A stretch of 60,075 nt of DNA from a virus: positions 1 through 60,075 of the IMG/VR virus record IMGVR_UViG_3300046747_000237. One strand, 5' to 3'. Within the stretch, counting starts at the first letter, position 1; every line of letters starts with the position of its first letter. Below are positions 32,209 to 60,075 of this stretch, one piece after another. The translations under genes and the position numbers were made by a program. Under the pieces are notes generated by a model that worked only from the letters and a program-made list of their open reading frames with translations, had not been told where the DNA came from and made no database searches.

Positions 32209-33372
32209 TCAGTTGAGAGAGGAGGCTGAAGACTGGGCTGTAACAGCGGCTGTAACAGGGTCGATCCTGGTGGCCGCCGCGATCTTGGAAACGGCGCTGG
32301 CCATGCTCACGCGGTCGAGGTGGCCGTAGACGGCGCGCACCATCACCGTGCTCTCGTGGCCCATCAGCTCGGCGCAAACGCGCTCCGGGACGCCTGCCTG
32401 GCACAGCCACGAGCAGAAGGTCCGCCGCAGGTCGTTGGGTGTCACTCGGGCGATTCCAGCGCGCACGCAAGCCCTGGCAAGGTCTCGGACGCACGATCCG
32501 TCGGTCCACTCTGGGAAGGGCTTGGCGAGCACGCAGCGGCGGCGCAGCACCTCGGCAGCCTCTGGGTTGACGGGCACCAACCGGTCGGCGCCGTCGGTCT
32601 TGGTCCCGCGGACCCGAAGCTCGAGGCGCTTGGCGTCGAAGTCGTCTGGCTGCATGTCGGAGAGCTCGGACTTGCGTAGCCCGAGGTGGCAGTACGCGAT
32701 GACGTAGTCCCGTCGATCTTGCCGGTCGGCACGGCGGCGCAATGTCTTCGGAACGCGCTGGTTGCGTGTCGGCACGGGGTTGGGAGCAAGCGCGTCGAGT
32801 AGCGCCTCGTACTCCCCGCGGGTCATCCAGCGGTCTCGCGGCTTGTAGACGCCCGTCAGTTCGTCGGGAAAGTAATGCGTCGGGCTGCGGCTCGGGCGGT
32901 ACAGGCCCAGCTTTTCCGCGCGTCGCATCGCCTGGGTGAGGGTCTTGATCTCCTTCGCGACCGTATGCCGGTGGGCACCATCCTTGATGCGGGTCCGCAT
33001 GTAGCTGGTGGTGTCCGCGAGCGTGACCGATGCCAGCGGCGTGCTGCTGCCCAAGTGCTCGATCAGGTGCCGAGCGTGGTAGGTGCTCGCGCGGACCGTT
33101 GCCGGCGCGCGCTTCGCGTCCCGCTGGTACTTCAGGACGAGATCGAGGGCGGTGCTCACCGTGAGCCTCGCTTCCTCTTTCCAACCGGCGTCAACAACAA
33201 AGCGTCGCTCAATTTCTCGAGCGGCAAGCTTCGCGGCAGCCGGTTCGGTTTGCTTCGTCGACTCGTGCCAACGCTTCCCGTCGACGCCTCGTCCACAGCA
33301 CCAGAGGAACCGGGTTCCCTTCTTTTTGTAGATGCTCGGCACTGGTACTCGTTGCCTCCGCTTTTGAACCAC
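32209..33372 (-). CDS. int: Tyrosine recombinase integrase
   Basis: 387 residues from GTG 33372; an internal GTG at residue 11 (VPSIYKKKG) is an alternative. N-terminal arm-binding region (about 1-60), SAM-like core-binding domain (70-160), catalytic domain 180-360. Catalytic residues: Arg233 in HLGLRKSEL, Lys258 in GTKTDGADR, Asn313-Asp-Leu-Arg316 (the usual His of HxxR is Asn), His339 in LMGHES and the nucleophile Tyr349 in VYGHLD. It integrates and excises the phage at the adjacent attP. Confidence 0.93.
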   Translation of the reverse strand: MVQKRRQRVPVPSIYKKKGTRFLWCCGRGVDGKRWHESTKQTEPAAAKLAAREIERRFVVDAGWKEEARLTVSTALDLVLKYQRDAKRAPATVRASTYHARHLIEHLGSSTPLASVTLADTTSYMRTRIKDGAHRHTVAKEIKTLTQAMRRAEKLGLYRPSRSPTHYFPDELTGVYKPRDRWMTRGEYEALLDALAPNPVPTRNQRVPKTLRRRADRQDRRDYVIAYCHLGLRKSELSDMQPDDFDAKRLELRVRGTKTDGADRLVPVNPEAAEVLRRRCVLAKPFPEWTDGSCVRDLARACVRAGIARVTPNDLRRTFCSWLCQAGVPERVCAELMGHESTVMVRAVYGHLDRVSMASAVSKIAAATRIDPVTAAVTAQSSASSLN

Positions 33373-36194: not shown

Positions 36195-37058
36195 TTACGC
36201 TGCTTCGTCTTCTGCTTCGTCGTGGTGCGACCGGTCCTCATCGCCCCACCGCGGGGGCGTTGGCAATGCGATGAGCTCGCGCTCGACGCGTGGCCACAGG
36301 CCGGATGCGTAGTGCCCGCGCAGTCTGATCAACTGCCGCTCAGTCCAGCGCCAGCCCTGGTCGAGCCACTCGGGCGTGAGCTCGACGACCTGGCAGCGGA
36401 AGGGGATGGTCTTCTCGCAGACGAGCAGGAAGTGCCTCGAGCCCAGCACGTCCCACGCCTGGCGGCAGATCGAGCCCTGAGCGTCGTAGCGGTATTTGAT
36501 CACGCCTCGCCCGCTCGTGATGTCAGAGAGAGACTGCGCGCTCTTCAGGTCGAGCGAGAACGGCGCATAGCCGCTCGCAAGGCACCCTTCCGCGCTCAGG
36601 TAGTCGGGCCGGCTCTGAATGCCCGGCGTGCCAGGGAACGGGCCGCGGAGGGTCACCTGCTTCACGCACGCGTTCACCATCTCCACGGCGGTCTCGTTCT
36701 CTTCCAGGGCCGCACGCATGGCCATGCAGCTGTCGAGCTCTTCCTCGGTGACGAACGAGCGACCCGCGGCCAGGTGCGCATCGCGCCACTTCTTGTCCTC
36801 GTTCGACCGGAACTCGCGATCCTTGATGACGAGCTTCCCGTCCGCATTGAAGCCGCGGCCCTGCACGATGTCCTCGAACACCTGCCCGAAGATCAGGGCC
36901 TCCCGGTTCTTCGTCTCTGGCGTCGAGCGCAGCACGTGCTTCGTGTAGAAGCCGTACGCGCCGAGCTGCTCGAACGTCTTGAGCTTGTTCGCCCCGAGCC
37001 TCGGGGAGGCGTGGTAGTCCTCGAGCGACACGTCGAGGCTGAAATTGCGCTCGATCAC
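36195..37058 (-). CDS. RecE-like PD-(D/E)XK exonuclease
   Basis: 287 residues, ATG 37058. GIQSRPDYL (Asp152) followed by FSLDLKSAQS (Asp170, Lys172) is the PD-(D/E)XK nuclease core, with the YR/Q helix beyond (RQAWDVLG). This family resects double-stranded ends, giving 3' tails for the annealase. Start overlaps the RecT-like gene stop (ATGA). Short compared with full RecE, matching the C-terminal nuclease domain type (DUF3799). Confidence 0.82.
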   Translation of the reverse strand: MIERNFSLDVSLEDYHASPRLGANKLKTFEQLGAYGFYTKHVLRSTPETKNREALIFGQVFEDIVQGRGFNADGKLVIKDREFRSNEDKKWRDAHLAAGRSFVTEEELDSCMAMRAALEENETAVEMVNACVKQVTLRGPFPGTPGIQSRPDYLSAEGCLASGYAPFSLDLKSAQSLSDITSGRGVIKYRYDAQGSICRQAWDVLGSRHFLLVCEKTIPFRCQVVELTPEWLDQGWRWTERQLIRLRGHYASGLWPRVERELIALPTPPRWGDEDRSHHDEAEDEAA

Positions 37059-37885
37059 TGCGCTGCCTCAGCGGGCTGCATGGCCAGGTTGATGGCCTCG
37101 CGCGGCGAGACCTCGTGCGCAGCGCATGCCTCTTGGAACGCCAGCCACGCCTTGCTCTTTCGCACCGGGCCGTGGAGCCGCACGATCTCGCGCGCCGTCT
37201 CGGCGAAGTGCTCGATCTTCGAGCAGCCCGGCAGGTCGTCGTTTATCAGCTTGGCAAGGCTCTCGTCCTTCGACGGCCCAGCGGCCAGCGCTGGCGCAGC
37301 GGAGGACGGCTCCATCGCGTTCAGCGGCGCGTCGATGAAGCGCGGCGGTTCGTAGCTCTGCTGCTCATCGTCGAGCTCATCGGGCAGGTAGATGCCGGCG
37401 AGGATGTCGGGGCAGTACGCCTTGCCCGCTGCGCTGATGGCGCGCGCTCGCAGCATCGCCTGTGGGTACATCTTCCAGTTGCCGCCATCCTTGAGCAGAC
37501 CAGCGCGCTCGGCGAACGCGAGCGTGAACGTCGACACGTACGGCTCTTGGCCGTCGCGCGACAGTTCGAGCGACGCCGTCTGGCCGTCGCTGCCGTCGTT
37601 GAGCCAGCGGTACTTGAGGCCGGCGCGGATCATCAGTCCGAGCTGCAGCGCCGCGTCGAGGGTGACGTTCCCCTTCACAATTTTTATGCTGCGGATGCTT
37701 GCCATCGGACCAATGCCGAGTTCTCGGCCAGCGAGCACGACCGCGACGATTTCGCCTTCACCGCGCAGGTGAGTCGGAAGGAACCCGCCTGCTTTGACGA
37801 GCGCCGATGCCAACTGGAAGATCGCGGGCAGCTCGCCAGCGATGTCTGTGCCGTTGCGTAGTGCCAGTGAAGAACCGTTGCTCAT
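37055..37885 (-). CDS. RecT-family ssDNA annealing protein
   Basis: 276 residues, ATG 37885. GRELGIGPMASIRSI and the conserved NWKMYPQAMLRARAISAAGK, CPDILAGIYLPDEL segments are characteristic of RecT/Redbeta-like annealases of this subgroup; the last third is variable and Ala/Ser-rich. Works with the RecE-like exonuclease and SSB for recombination-dependent replication or gene exchange. Confidence 0.85.
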   Translation of the reverse strand: MSNGSSLALRNGTDIAGELPAIFQLASALVKAGGFLPTHLRGEGEIVAVVLAGRELGIGPMASIRSIKIVKGNVTLDAALQLGLMIRAGLKYRWLNDGSDGQTASLELSRDGQEPYVSTFTLAFAERAGLLKDGGNWKMYPQAMLRARAISAAGKAYCPDILAGIYLPDELDDEQQSYEPPRFIDAPLNAMEPSSAAPALAAGPSKDESLAKLINDDLPGCSKIEHFAETAREIVRLHGPVRKSKAWLAFQEACAAHEVSPREAINLAMQPAEAAQ

Positions 37886-52131: not shown

Positions 52132-52434
52132 GTGGACCGCTTCACCTGGCAAGACTGCGTGCTCGACGCCAAGCAGCACACGCTGACGGTGCAGGGCAAG
52201 CTCGTGCACATCGAGCCGCGCTGCTTCGAAGTGTTGTTGATGTTGATGCGTCGTGCTGGCGAGCTGGTGACGAAGCAAGAACTGCTTGATACGGTGGGGC
52301 GTGGGCAGAAAGTGAGCGAGGCCAGTCTGCACGTGGCGGTCGGCGTGGCGCGTAGGGCTCTCAAGAGCGGGTGCGGCTACCCGATCGAGAACGTGCCGAC
52401 GCTGGGGTATCGGTTCGTTGGCAAGGTCGAGTGA
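52132..52434 (+). CDS. Stand-alone OmpR/PhoB-type winged-helix DNA-binding protein
   Basis: 100 residues from GTG 52132. Entire protein is a Trans_reg_C domain: CVLDAKQHTLTVQGKLVHIE (beta platform), CFEVLLMLMRRAGELVTKQELLDTV, SLHVAVGVARRAL (recognition helix) and NVPTLGYRFVG (wing). No receiver domain, so control by phosphorylation is unlikely. At the end of the early operon it is well placed to activate late promoters; see findings. Confidence 0.85.
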   Translation: MDRFTWQDCVLDAKQHTLTVQGKLVHIEPRCFEVLLMLMRRAGELVTKQELLDTVGRGQKVSEASLHVAVGVARRALKSGCGYPIENVPTLGYRFVGKVE

Positions 52435-54486: not shown

Positions 54487-54551
54487 AGCGTACGCGCGGC
54501 GCCCTGCAAAGGGACATGCTCTGCTACGCGATCGCCAACGGCTACGTCTAG
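54396..54551 (+). CDS. Small helical protein at the operon end
   Basis: 51 residues from GTG 54396; the C-terminal part (FEAQHQASEFGAILKRTRGA, QRDMLCYAIANGYV) reads like a folded helix, better than the competing frame. Its TAG overlaps the stop of the convergent adhesin gene. Confidence 0.4.
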   Translation: MAPTRRAGRVRAPLRDFEAQHQASEFGAILKRTRGALQRDMLCYAIANGYV

Positions 54552-57500
54552 ACCTGCGGCACCCCGTACCGCTCGTACGCATAGCGTCGCACCAGCTGCT
54601 TCGCGTCGTAGCCCATCTCCCTGTCGTAGATGATCAGGTCCAGGAACACGAACTGCGACCCGTCGGCGACACCCAGCTGCAGCGTCGCCTGTGCGTCGTT
54701 GGTGCTGGGCGTGAAGTAGAGCTTGATCGAGCTCCGCACGTCGCTGTTGACGTCGAGCGTGCAGTCGACCTGCTGGGCCTCGACGCCACCCGTGAAGTGC
54801 ACGATGACCACGTCGCCATTGGCGTGCGCGGCGCTCGCAGGGCCGTCCGCCTGGGGCTGCGTCTCCGCGATCACGAAGTGCACGTTCCCGGTGCCAGGGT
54901 TGACGTAGGTGTAGAGCCCATCGTTGCCCGTGGTGGTGGTCTGGATCAGCCCGTTGTAGTTGTCGTTCACAACGAGCTTGGCGATCAGGAAGATCTCGCA
55001 GGGGTCACCCTGGTGGATGAAGTTCCAGTCAGCCCGCGGCAGGTTGCTCACGTACTTCTGGCCGCCCGTGAAGGTCACTCCGAGCGCGTTGTTCGCGGTT
55101 GGGATGGCAACAGGCACTGCAACGCGCTCGCCGACGATGGCTGAGAGTGTGTGGCCGCCGACCACGAGATCTTGGAACGCGGTGACGAGCCCGCCGGCCT
55201 GGGTGTACGTGTCCGCGCGGATCCAGCACGCGGGCAGACGGTTCTCGAGCGCCCAGTAGACGTAGCCGTCGAGCGACCACACGGCGTAGCGGTCGCGGAT
55301 GTACGCGAGCACCGCGGTGTCTTCCTCTGGTCGCAGCACGCGGTCGAAGATGATCGCCTCAGCCAGGCGCATCGTGCTGCCGAGCTCGCACAGCGCGAGC
55401 GTCTGCGGAGCCGTCACGGTCGATGGCGTGGGGAAGTCCCCCGACGTCTCGCCCTGGCCAGGGCCGTACCGCAGCTCGGCTTGGAACGACTGCAGCGCGT
55501 CTGCACGCCAGCGCACGAGCACGCCAGCGCCGTCGGGGTTGCCGTCTGGCTGGCTGAGGATGAGGTTCGCGGCTGAGGCGTTCACGACGCCTACGGACAG
55601 TCCAGCGCCCGGGTTGGTGTACGCGAAGAAGCCGTTTGAGCCGGTCGATGTGCTGGAGAGGACGGTGTTGTAGCCAGCTGTCGCCAGCGACGTCATCACC
55701 AGGTAGACGGTGCGCGCGCCCTCCTGGTGCAGGAAGTCCCAGTCGTCCGGCGCGAGCGTGCTCGTGTAGTACGAGCCGCCGTTGAACGCTGCGACCTCGG
55801 CTCCGTTGAGCGAGGTGGTGACGTCAGACACGAGGATGCGGGCCGAGTCGTCTGCCTGGGCGAACGAGTGGCCAGGGCGCACTAGGTCGGTGAAGCTCGA
55901 GATCCGGCTGCCGACGGTCACGTACGCATCTGCGCGGATGCGCGAGAACGGCCCGAGCCCGTTGACGACCGTGCTCAGGTCGCTCGCAGGCATCGACGCG
56001 ACGGTGGGCCGCCGCGAGCTCGTGAGCAGCATGGGCACCTCGCCGAGCGCCAGCGTCATGTTCGCGCCGGCGTAGATGGCGGCCTCGCGCGCGTTGCCCT
56101 CGAAGTCGACGATCGTGGCGCCAACACCGACGCGCACGGTGATCGGGGGCTCCGGGTAGTCGTTGTCGCTCCAGTAGACCGAGACCCACTGCGAGTGGTC
56201 GGCGTTGCGGAATAGATAGAAGCGCGCGCGCTGCGTCAGCCCGGGGAGCACGCCGTCCGGCACGTAGCCGCGCAGGCTGGCGACGACCTGATTGACGACG
56301 CCGTACGCAGGGCGCGGCTGCAGGCTGAAGTACAGCAGCCCCAGGCTCGCTTCGTCGTCGGTGGGCCCGTCGAAGGTGTCGCGCATGAGGTAGATGATGA
56401 AACCTCGCGCAAGCTCGTCGTGGCGCACGTACGCCATCTTCTTGGCCAGCGTGAGCGCCTGCGTTCGTTGCTGGCTGAACGCGGCGGTGCGGCCGACCTC
56501 GGACAGGTACCAGGGCATCGTCTCGTCCACGCCCGCTGCTACGCGGTTGGCCTTGACGATCTCGTAGTCCTTCTCGAGCGAGCCGAAGTCGCCGTAGTTG
56601 TGCCAGCTGTGGATCGAGAACGCGGCGTTCGCCTCAGCGAGCACGCGCGCATGGATCGTCGGGTTCAGGTCGGTCAGCCCTGCGCCGTAGATCGTCTCGC
56701 TCGCGAACGCGCAGCCCAGGATGCTCGGCGCCGTGAGCGTGCCCCGTAGCGTGGCCGCGGTGAGGTTGATGAACGCAATGAAGTCGTCGATGCCGCTTGG
56801 CTGCGCCCAGTAGATCGAGAGGTTCGGCTCGTTCCAATCCTCCCAGCGCCAGACCTTGTCGCCGTATCGAGCGGCGTAGGCCGAGACGTAGTCGACCCAG
56901 TAGGCGTCGATTGGCCGCTCGCGGCTCAGATGCAGGTCGCTCCCGTCTGCAGCGTACCGAGCGAGCGAGGCAGGCGTAGCGGCGAACGCGGCGCTGTAGC
57001 TGGTGAGCGAGACGACGCGCAGTCCGGCACCGGTCAGCAGCTCGTACGCGGCGTCGGGGCGTGACCAGTCGAGCGTGCCGTCGGGACCCTCGGTGGAGTC
57101 CCAGTTGTGGCTGTGCCGCGCGACCATGAGGCCCGCCTGGCGCATCGCCTCGATCTGCGCGTCGTTGGACGCGTCGTCGCCGAGGTCGAAGTCAGGGCCA
57201 GCGTCTCCCGCGAGCGAGATGGTTGCGCCCCAGTCGAAGTTGGCGTCGTATTCAGCCCCGGCGAACGCAGGCACGAACACGAAGTTGTCGGTGCCGCTCA
57301 CCGATCCGCCCGACCAGCTCGCCGAGTACGTGACCAGCCTGTGCCCGTAGACAGGCTCGCCGTCGGTGCGCAGCTGCAGGCTGATGCTGCCCACCGAGAG
57401 CGCGGGCACAGAGAGCGACGTGTCGAGCGGGTGGTAGCGGTTGTCGACGGTCTTGTACGAGCCGGTGACCACGACCGTCTTGGCGACCGCGTAGCCGTTG

Positions 57501-57772
57501 AACACGCCGAGGTAGCTCGAGCCCTCGTGGGCTGGGTCGATGGCGCGCACGGGGTTGTCGCAAACGACGGCCAGCGTGATCGCGTCGGTCTGCGTGAGCG
57601 GGGCGACGGTGGGCGGCTCCGAGGCGAGCAGCGTGCCGCGCTGGAGCTCGCGGACGATGGCCTCCGTGCTGGTGGTGAGCTTCCCGTCGGCGGGGATCTG
57701 AATGCCGTCGTCGTCCAGCACGACAGCGCCGGTGAGAGGCGTAACGAAGATCGGTTGCGGGGTGCGTGCCAC
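54548..57772 (-). CDS. Tail adhesin with clan GH-A glycoside hydrolase and two LamG-like modules
   Basis: 1074 residues from GTG 57772. Residues 1-48 are an attachment module shared with the 57814 protein (MAR[TS]P.PI.V.P..G...). Residues 175-500 form a TIM-barrel glycosidase of clan GH-A: RWEDWNEPN with acid/base Glu315 and WYLSEVGRT with nucleophile Glu425, near GH39/GH5-like enzymes. Two concanavalin-like modules follow (about 615-850 and 860-1074), each with W-x-F-[LI]-H. It probably degrades a surface polysaccharide at adsorption. Confidence 0.82.
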   Translation of the reverse strand: MARTPQPIFVTPLTGAVVLDDDGIQIPADGKLTTSTEAIVRELQRGTLLASEPPTVAPLTQTDAITLAVVCDNPVRAIDPAHEGSSYLGVFNGYAVAKTVVVTGSYKTVDNRYHPLDTSLSVPALSVGSISLQLRTDGEPVYGHRLVTYSASWSGGSVSGTDNFVFVPAFAGAEYDANFDWGATISLAGDAGPDFDLGDDASNDAQIEAMRQAGLMVARHSHNWDSTEGPDGTLDWSRPDAAYELLTGAGLRVVSLTSYSAAFAATPASLARYAADGSDLHLSRERPIDAYWVDYVSAYAARYGDKVWRWEDWNEPNLSIYWAQPSGIDDFIAFINLTAATLRGTLTAPSILGCAFASETIYGAGLTDLNPTIHARVLAEANAAFSIHSWHNYGDFGSLEKDYEIVKANRVAAGVDETMPWYLSEVGRTAAFSQQRTQALTLAKKMAYVRHDELARGFIIYLMRDTFDGPTDDEASLGLLYFSLQPRPAYGVVNQVVASLRGYVPDGVLPGLTQRARFYLFRNADHSQWVSVYWSDNDYPEPPITVRVGVGATIVDFEGNAREAAIYAGANMTLALGEVPMLLTSSRRPTVASMPASDLSTVVNGLGPFSRIRADAYVTVGSRISSFTDLVRPGHSFAQADDSARILVSDVTTSLNGAEVAAFNGGSYYTSTLAPDDWDFLHQEGARTVYLVMTSLATAGYNTVLSSTSTGSNGFFAYTNPGAGLSVGVVNASAANLILSQPDGNPDGAGVLVRWRADALQSFQAELRYGPGQGETSGDFPTPSTVTAPQTLALCELGSTMRLAEAIIFDRVLRPEEDTAVLAYIRDRYAVWSLDGYVYWALENRLPACWIRADTYTQAGGLVTAFQDLVVGGHTLSAIVGERVAVPVAIPTANNALGVTFTGGQKYVSNLPRADWNFIHQGDPCEIFLIAKLVVNDNYNGLIQTTTTGNDGLYTYVNPGTGNVHFVIAETQPQADGPASAAHANGDVVIVHFTGGVEAQQVDCTLDVNSDVRSSIKLYFTPSTNDAQATLQLGVADGSQFVFLDLIIYDREMGYDAKQLVRRYAYERYGVPQV

Positions 57773-57813: not shown

Positions 57814-59715
57814 TCAGATGGTGATCGCGTAGTAGCTCGAGATGTACGAGTTCACGGTCGCGCGCTCCCCAGACGTCAGCACGCGGTTGCAGATGATGAG
57901 CTCGGCAACGCCCATCGCGCATGGGTTCTGCGAGCCGATGCGCAGCGTCAGCGCCGCGTTCCCGGTGTCTGGCGTCAGGCCGTAGTTGGCGGTGACGTCA
58001 GCCTGGCTGGAGACAGAGAGCGTCGAGTCAGGCGTCTGCGCCGAGCCCATCCGCAGGTTGACCGATCGCGGTGTGCCCGTGGTGTTGCTCGAGGCACTTG
58101 CGACAAGCACTGCCGCGGTGGACGCGTCGTCGACCTCCACGTTGATGACGCCGGTCGTATGATCGTTGTAGAGGGTGAGCCCAGCGCCGAGCGCGGTAGC
58201 CGCGACGTTGGTGGTCAGGTACTCGTTGAAGTTGCCGTCTGTCGTGACCTTGAGGACGAAGAAGAGCTCGCAGTCAGACCCATCGTGCAGGAACTTCCAC
58301 TGCGCCGTAGTGCGGCTGCTCGTGAGGTACACGCCCGACGTGAACGGGATGACCAGACGATTGTTCATCGTCGACTCAGTCGCCGCAGCACCAGGCCGAA
58401 GCCCCGCCGTCGCCTGATCAAACGTGTGGCCGCTCAGCACCAGGTCCTGCAGCTGGCTGACCTTGGAGCTGACCTCCGTCCGCGTGTCGGCGCGGACACG
58501 AGAGAACGCGAGCGCGCTGACCGCTGCGCTGAGGTCGCTGATGCCCGCAGCAGAACCCGTCAGCCCCGCCTGTGCGCCCGCTCCTGTGCCTGCGATGCGT
58601 TGCGCGCCCGAGGCCGCCCCGGTCAGCCCCGACTGCGCTCCGGCTGCCGTGCCGGCAATGCGCATCGCGCCGCTCGCCGCCCCGGTCAGGCCGCTCTGTG
58701 CTCCAGCGCCTGTGCCCGCGAGACGCAGCCCGCCAGCAGCCGCGCCCGTCAGGCCGGCCTGTGTGCCTGCTCCAGCGCCGCTGATCGCGCCAGCGCTCGA
58801 CGTGCCACCGGCGGCGCCTACGAGGCCCGCTTGGGCGCCTGCAGCGGTGCCAGCGATGCGGAGGCCGCCTGTCGCGGCCCCGGTCAAGCTTGGCCGCACG
58901 CCAGCGCCAGTGCCGCTGATGGACGAAATCGCGCCGGCGGTACCCGTAGCTGCCCCAACAAGCCAGGCGTCAGTCGAGTAGCGCAGCACGTTCGAGAAGG
59001 TGCCGACGAAGTTCGTGGGACCGCTCGACGTCGACAGCCTGCCGATGCCCATCGTGCCGAGCGGCCAGACGAAAGCGGAGCCGAGGTCGGTAGCCCCGTT
59101 GCCCTCGGTGGCGCCGGAGATCGTGATCCTGCCGATCGTCGTGTCGACCTCGACCGTGATCGCCTGGCCGAGCGAATACTCGAAGAACGCGAGGTTGCCG
59201 TTGCCCGCCGAGGCCCCGCTGTCCCAGGTGTAAATGCAGGTGTTGCCGTGGACGTTTGAGTAATAGAGGTCGAGCCCGTTCTGCGTTGCCCCGCCGATGT
59301 TGAACAGCTGGTACGTGACGCCGCTCGTGCGCGCGGACTGCGTGAACGTGAACTTCCACCGTCCGCTGCGCATGAACGACGGCGCCACCGTCGTGCTCGG
59401 CGGCTGCAGCGCGGTCAGGTCGAGGCCGAGCGAGTAGCCGTCGCCCGACATGAGCAGGCCGGCTGCCGTGCCCGCGAGACGCATCGCTCCCGCGCCGGCT
59501 CCCATGAGCCCCGACAAAGCACCCGCTGCCGACCCGCTGATCGGAGGCGGGTGGTACGGCACCGGGTAGCAGTCGAGCGACCCCTCGAGCAGCTCGTTCT
59601 CCACCTCGTCATCGACAGTCGTCTCGATGCCCGCAGCGGGCACGACAACGCCATCCAGGCGCACGGTGACGCCGGGCTTGGGGACGACGAGGATAGGAGC
59701 CGGGCTGCGCGCCAC
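57814..59715 (-). CDS. Gly/Ala-repeat tail adhesin with LamG-like module
   Basis: 633 residues from GTG 59715. Residues 1-48: attachment module shared with the 54548 protein and resembling DUF2635. Residues 92-250: a jelly-roll-like region. Residues 62-86 and 253-393: a 21-residue Gly/Ala repeat (GAQSGLTGAASGAMRIAGTAA). Residues 402-633: concanavalin-like module ending VLTSGERATVNSYISSYYAI. Likely a fibre or adhesin next to the glycosidase protein. Starts 2 nt after the stop of the gene spanning the contig join. Confidence 0.72.
   Translation of the reverse strand: MARSPAPILVVPKPGVTVRLDGVVVPAAGIETTVDDEVENELLEGSLDCYPVPYHPPPISGSAAGALSGLMGAGAGAMRLAGTAAGLLMSGDGYSLGLDLTALQPPSTTVAPSFMRSGRWKFTFTQSARTSGVTYQLFNIGGATQNGLDLYYSNVHGNTCIYTWDSGASAGNGNLAFFEYSLGQAITVEVDTTIGRITISGATEGNGATDLGSAFVWPLGTMGIGRLSTSSGPTNFVGTFSNVLRYSTDAWLVGAATGTAGAISSISGTGAGVRPSLTGAATGGLRIAGTAAGAQAGLVGAAGGTSSAGAISGAGAGTQAGLTGAAAGGLRLAGTGAGAQSGLTGAASGAMRIAGTAAGAQSGLTGAASGAQRIAGTGAGAQAGLTGSAAGISDLSAAVSALAFSRVRADTRTEVSSKVSQLQDLVLSGHTFDQATAGLRPGAAATESTMNNRLVIPFTSGVYLTSSRTTAQWKFLHDGSDCELFFVLKVTTDGNFNEYLTTNVAATALGAGLTLYNDHTTGVINVEVDDASTAAVLVASASSNTTGTPRSVNLRMGSAQTPDSTLSVSSQADVTANYGLTPDTGNAALTLRIGSQNPCAMGVAELIICNRVLTSGERATVNSYISSYYAITI
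58537..58959 (-). repeat. 63-bp coding tandem repeat (21-residue Gly/Ala unit)
   Basis: About six units of 21 residues (one of 24) inside the 57814 protein; the best two copies differ at few positions at the protein level. An isolated seventh copy is at 59458-59532. The regular Gly/Ala spacing suggests packed glycine-rich helices or an extended stalk; such repeats can change copy number by recombination. Confidence 0.75.
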
Positions 59716-59717
59716 GG

Positions 59718-60075
59718 TCAGGTCCCGACAGGCGCCGTGATCGTGAAGCTGCTGACGGTGACCACGACCGTCGCCACGAAGCTCAGCGTCGAGAACTGGA
59801 ACTCACCACCGCCGCCCGTCGCCGTGCAGCTGAAGTCGCCCAGCACCGTGGTGCCGTTGGACTGCAGCACGCGCACGAAGCTCGCGGTGCCGGTGGCGTC
59901 CGCCGAGCTGTCCTGCGTGATCGCGTTGGCCGTGAGCACACCGCTGGAGCTCGCGGGGAACGCCGTCGCGTTGAGCGTGAGCTCCGCGAGCAGCGTGTTG
60001 CCGGCGAGCGCGGTGTCTGCGTCAGTGGGACGAGTACCGCTGTACACGCGGACAAAGCCCGAGTTGTAGGACGCG
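59718..60075 (-). CDS. Small tail-associated protein, C-terminal part (gene begins at 174 across the join)
   Basis: Continuation of the gene starting at ATG 174. In the circle the coding length is 405 bp (134 residues). This portion holds the beta-rich Thr/Val/Ser segments (GTASFVRVLQSNGTTVLGDF, STLSFVATVVVTVSS). The TGA at 59718 is 2 nt before the next GTG. Confidence 0.8.
   Translation of the reverse strand, partial: ASYNSGFVRVYSGTRPTDADTALAGNTLLAELTLNATAFPASSSGVLTANAITQDSSADATGTASFVRVLQSNGTTVLGDFSCTATGGGGEFQFSTLSFVATVVVTVSSFTITAPVGT
59949..60075. repeat. 127-bp direct terminal repeat (right copy)
   Basis: Identical to 1-127. See the left copy; removing one copy gives a 59,948-bp circle with an intact gene across the junction. 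Confidence 0.9.

Follow-up and report, generated by a model that had tools for sequence, protein, structure and literature searches.

Does the long minus-strand gene near one end of this phage genome encode an enzyme that cuts host polysaccharide, and if so, does that enzyme travel on the virus particle? The window, by which we mean the whole stretch analysed, is the 60,075-base virus record IMGVR_UViG_3300046747_000237, which carries a direct terminal repeat of 127 bases (positions 1–127 and 59949–60075). A 134-aa virion gene that is split in two by the ends of the window reads intact across this repeat, and the record is therefore probably a complete genome of about 59.9 kb. Profile matches in the window included a portal protein (PHROG 156), a tail protein (PHROG 6013), the large terminase (PHROG 2), a DnaB-type helicase, an M15 peptidase endolysin and a tyrosine integrase; none of the window proteins scanned by profiles matched a tape measure. 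The phage is probably temperate, as suggested by the tyrosine integrase and a RecT match below the threshold, at 32209–33159 and 37055–37885, and it is probably podovirus-like. The terminase had only distant relatives in the collections searched and the portal and internal proteins had none there, while portal and module profiles gave no match in 398 genomes of one phylum, in a search that had no positive control; tblastn matches to chi-like phages at E 6–8 were taken as chance. A small ORF at 52132–52434 resembles, by eye only, an OmpR/CadC-type winged-helix DNA-binding domain.

The gene in question, P0001 (54548–57772, on the minus strand together with its neighbours P0002 and P0003), is present where the preliminary description of this locus puts it; it encodes 1074 aa from a GTG start, and a simple codon-usage caller scores it as strongly coding. 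That description also proposed a clan GH-A TIM barrel with catalytic residues Glu315 and Glu425 at a usual separation, and both proposals were borne out by structure prediction. An AlphaFold2 model of residues 1–610 was of high confidence for most of residues 170–597 and of low confidence before residue 170, and the alternation of strands and helices in residues 170–502 (56267–57265) is that of a (beta/alpha)8 barrel, the fold of clan GH-A; a non-barrel fold was thus not predicted. The catalytic body is thus predicted to be a TIM barrel, and not the beta-helix of classical tailspikes and depolymerases. The motif WEDWNEPN (residues 310–317, 56822–56845) follows strand 4 of the model, with WNEP starting at W313, which places the candidate acid/base Glu315 (56828–56830) directly after strand 309–312, while the YLSEVG motif contains the candidate nucleophile Glu425 (56498–56500) within strand 7 (residues 421–426). 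These are the positions of the catalytic glutamates in clan GH-A, whose acid/base usually belongs to an N-E-P motif and whose nucleophile ends strand 7. The two residues are 110 positions apart. Both were Glu in all 60 rows of a family alignment, as invariant as W310, W313, N314, P316 and H391.

An intact-looking barrel could still be catalytically idle, a sugar-binding platform by which the phage merely attaches, and phage adhesins might conceivably lose their activity. A quickly built tree with long branches gives P0001 a long branch of 2.31 changes per column, which leaves some room for such a loss, but P0001 retains the two glutamates together with the active-site motif around them (R219, W310, W313, N314, P316, H391 and Y393), and we consider an idle binder quite unlikely.

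Single-sequence phmmer searches of the PDB matched P0001 to a GH39 beta-xylosidase (E 2.4e-4), to 5JVK (E 0.0016) and to PslG (E 0.05), and phmmer of P0001 against GH ORFs fetched from bacteria, a small database, gave E 4e-27; together with the high-confidence TIM barrel, these matches exclude a chance resemblance. The profile of the 60-row alignment matched the structures 5JVK (E 6.8e-64) and PslG (E 2e-61), and the printed profile alignment sets the PslG motifs WNEPN and TE-G against those of the family itself. Structural comparison of the model using Foldseek and VIA-align also placed PslG (Z 34.5, rmsd 2.9 over 381 residues) and GH39wh2 (5JVK, Z 33.4) at the top, ahead of the GH39 xylosidases (Z 27–28) and other GH-A families (Z 26–27); all along the list, the fold matches were TIM-barrel enzymes. 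As in PslG, the modelled barrel is followed by a beta-sandwich (residues 503–593 in the model), which is the GH39 architecture; we delimit this domain as residues 503–597 (55982–56266), with homology to a cellular relative, the L071 enzyme, extending to residue 608 and the PslG alignment to residue 586.

The preliminary description had left the family as GH39 or GH5. A GH5-type cellulase like gp095 of Erwinia phage S6 would agree with BFVD, where several phage proteins with a fold similar to the P0001 barrel occur, many of them named GH5, and with the Pfam Cellulase family matching 31 of the 60 alignment rows. However, Pfam GH39 matches more of these rows (50/60), the profile matches are led by GH39, and the Z scores of PslG and GH39wh2 exceed those of the non-GH39 families by about 6, which makes a GH5 enzyme highly improbable. 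P0001 alone scores only 12.4 bits against the Pfam GH39 cut-off of 26 bits, hence its membership rests on profile and fold, by which the barrel appears to fit GH39 of the PslG/GH39wh2 endo-type better than GH5. PslG has been shown to be a retaining endo-beta-glucosidase with putative catalytic residues Glu165 and Glu276, at a spacing of 111 residues (PMC11912335), and endo action and a large groove have been described for both PslG and GH39wh2 (PMC6933502); since these are the nearest structures, we expect endo rather than exo action for P0001.

The two enzymes also mark how far P0001 departs from its cellular counterparts. PslG of Pseudomonas aeruginosa (4ZN2, 5BX9, 9G17) shares the barrel with C-terminal beta-sandwich and nearly the same spacing of the Glu pair (111 versus 110 residues) and acts on a bacterial biofilm exopolysaccharide, but it is a cellular enzyme of an exopolysaccharide operon, lacks a phage anchor and lectin modules, and is only 16% identical to P0001 over the structural alignment. 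Likewise, GH39wh2 of Bacteroides cellulosilyticus has a GH39 endo-type barrel and C-terminal beta-sandwich but is a cellular gut enzyme with 18% identity to P0001, and carries a beta-sandwich on each side of the barrel (PMC6933502), whereas no match was obtained for the N-terminal part of P0001. In P0001 this position is occupied by a strand-rich stretch (residues 55–169, 57266–57610; AlphaFold2 pLDDT <50), possibly an N-terminal beta-sandwich like that of GH39wh2; its sequence did not significantly match the equivalent region of the L071 enzyme.

What surrounds the enzyme domain is partly shared with a neighbouring adhesin-like gene. P0003, P0002 and P0001 follow one another on one strand, about 2 and 41 bases apart, P0003 being upstream of both others. 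The adhesin-like ORF P0002 (57814–59715, 633 aa) begins with the same segment of about 48 residues (59575–59715) that heads P0001 (residues 1–48, 57629–57772), the two being 44% identical (BLASTP E 7e-10, 12.9 standard deviations above shuffles), and from this sharing the segment looks like a virion anchor. The N-terminal attachment domain claimed earlier is represented by this short segment, while the following residues 55–169 showed no resolved fold. A DUF2635-like family was considered for the anchor, but the anchor had no match in Pfam even at E 10; no trimerisation element was identified in P0001. At the other end of P0001, the modules M1 (residues 606–843, 55244–55957) and M2 (residues 844–1074, 54551–55243) are homologous to each other (35 standard deviations above shuffles) and to the C-terminal module M3 of P0002 (57817–58521), with all three mutually 29–39 standard deviations above shuffles, so that the two C-terminal modules of the preliminary description are indeed present. 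The AlphaFold2 model of M2 is of low confidence (mean pLDDT 52.5); its best structural match was the tailspike of Cyanopodophage Pan3 (9VYH, Z 15.9, 198 residues, rmsd 3.0, 15% identity), and its other high matches were jelly-roll domains of unrelated proteins, which indicate the fold only. In this low-confidence model the C-terminal modules thus resemble a lectin-like jelly roll. The Gly/Ala-rich middle of P0002 is possibly a glycine-rich shaft; repeats of about 21 residues (a 63-base tandem repeat, 58559–58763) lie there between a beta-rich part and M3.

The neighbourhood bears on where in the particle such a protein would sit. P0003 (59718–60075), the 134-aa gene already noted as reading across the 127-base terminal repeat, encodes a virion structural protein of PHROG 3758 (E 2.3e-25), a family with the category head and packaging, and the cluster lies apart from the tail-like genes at 8–23 kb, which are on the other strand. 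P0001 could accordingly be a head fibre that binds and cuts slime, in the way that gene transfer agents have capsule-binding head spikes (PMC13420450). On the other hand, a relative of P0003, gp34 of mycobacteriophage Send513, is encoded shortly after three minor tail proteins, and M2 resembles a podophage tailspike, which renders attachment to the head unlikely. On the basis of module resemblance and gene neighbourhood, a location of P0001 in the virion is itself likely, and this is supported by P0001 sharing both its anchor and its C-terminal module with P0002, as well as by similar barrels being encoded beside tail genes elsewhere.

These other barrels came from a search of IMG/VR with the DNA pattern W..WNEPN, which gave 52 contigs, some 20-odd of them with real GH-A frames, after length and HMM score had been used to discard about 25–30 chance frames. 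Relatives in IMG/VR were neighboured by tape measure and Dit genes (L016), a tape measure gene (L046), a tailspike gene (L057), tail protein genes (L067) or a major head protein gene (L060), and in Lactobacillus phage Bacchae a family member adjoins a tail spike gene. Three large viral ORFs with GH-A motifs or barrels, L067:6420-9899 (1160 aa, directly before the tail protein genes), L017:2612-7156 (1515 aa) and L005:8128-10437 (770 aa), are independent candidates for enzyme-bearing virion proteins. In several IMG/VR contigs the GH-A gene is instead single-domain and has no visible tail neighbours, as in Caulobacter phage Cr30, whose 'beta-1,4 xylanase' gp072 shares a GH39/PslG-like barrel with P0001 (33% identity to the family consensus) but is a stand-alone gene of 394 aa in which the adhesin architecture is not seen. 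By analogy, P0001 might be a non-virion enzyme, freed at lysis to clear slime for the progeny. However, a signal peptide is not apparent by eye in P0001, and its N-terminal segment and C-terminal module are both common to a second ORF of the cluster, and release at lysis is very unlikely.

Guided by the profile, a search through bacterial and archaeal genomes identified at least 292 confirmed relatives among at least 597 candidates. The closest among the matches listed came from an uncultured Lentisphaeria bacterium, whose ORF (E about 1e-29, small database) aligns with residues 212–608 of P0001, thus including the beta-sandwich after the barrel. P0001 also groups beside a Lentisphaerota enzyme in the quick tree (SH-aLRT 91), which is only a hint. 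The viral copies are scattered among bacterial copies in this tree, which suggests that phages may have acquired barrels of this kind on more than one occasion. Direct searches with P0001 gave no match in INPHARED phages or in plasmids, and exact peptide patterns of P0001 gave none in IMG/VR; P0002 had no match in phages, and the module profile had none in IMG/VR.

Phages were already known to carry clan GH-A enzymes within or next to their tail genes, and with several more detected here in IMG/VR, the rarity attributed to such an enzyme in the preliminary description was overstated. The unusual receptor polysaccharide suggested there amounts to a guess. Erwinia amylovora phage S6 requires cellulose, and its GH5 protein gp095 is active on a cellulose model substrate (PMC9544554). 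Like P0001, gp095 is a clan GH-A glycosidase, S6 is a podovirus, and the N-terminal domains of gp095 are thought to attach to the particle, although its place there is unproven according to a commentary (PMC9544554); gp095 differs in belonging to family GH5, in its other accessory domains and in having the catalytic domain at the C-terminus. The 'endoglucanase E1' of the Lastavirus phages LASTA and SJM3 is a putative endoglucanase by annotation only, and its gene adjoins tail fibre genes (PMC10052179). In the Rhodobacter gene transfer agent, a TIM-barrel domain whose function is unknown sits peripherally on the baseplate (PMC13420450). What is new in P0001 is that a PslG-like GH39 type occurs together with a presumed phage anchor and modules resembling a tailspike; no phage adhesin of the GH39/PslG type was described in the literature searched, which left most subscription journals outside its scope.

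Taken together, we favour P0001 being a virion-borne adhesin-depolymerase of a podovirus-like phage, composed of an anchor, a retaining beta-endoglycosidase barrel and glycan-holding modules, a reading to which we assign a probability of roughly 0.64. The anchor of about 48 residues would attach the protein to the particle, at the same place as P0002 or beside it, and the lectin-like modules, judging by their fold, would hold a host polysaccharide or surface glycan. The barrel may then cut an internal beta-glycosidic bond of the host exopolysaccharide by retaining double displacement, with Glu315 as putative acid/base and Glu425 as putative nucleophile, roles which correspond to their positions in the model and to the chemistry expected from the family. 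Such combined binding and cutting would let a short-tailed phage pass through slime to the cell surface. The chances are about even for the wider proposal that a PslG-type GH39 endoglycosidase was captured as the main body of a phage receptor-binding protein, replacing the beta-helix and serving as primary receptor-degrading enzyme, with such barrels apparently gained more than once. The conserved Glu pair makes the enzyme activity easy to test, and the family alignment and list of viral contigs provide a handle for finding more phage enzymes directed against bacterial exopolysaccharides. If the proposal is true, the enzyme folds that phages use for slime penetration would include the GH39/PslG type in addition to beta-helices and GH5.
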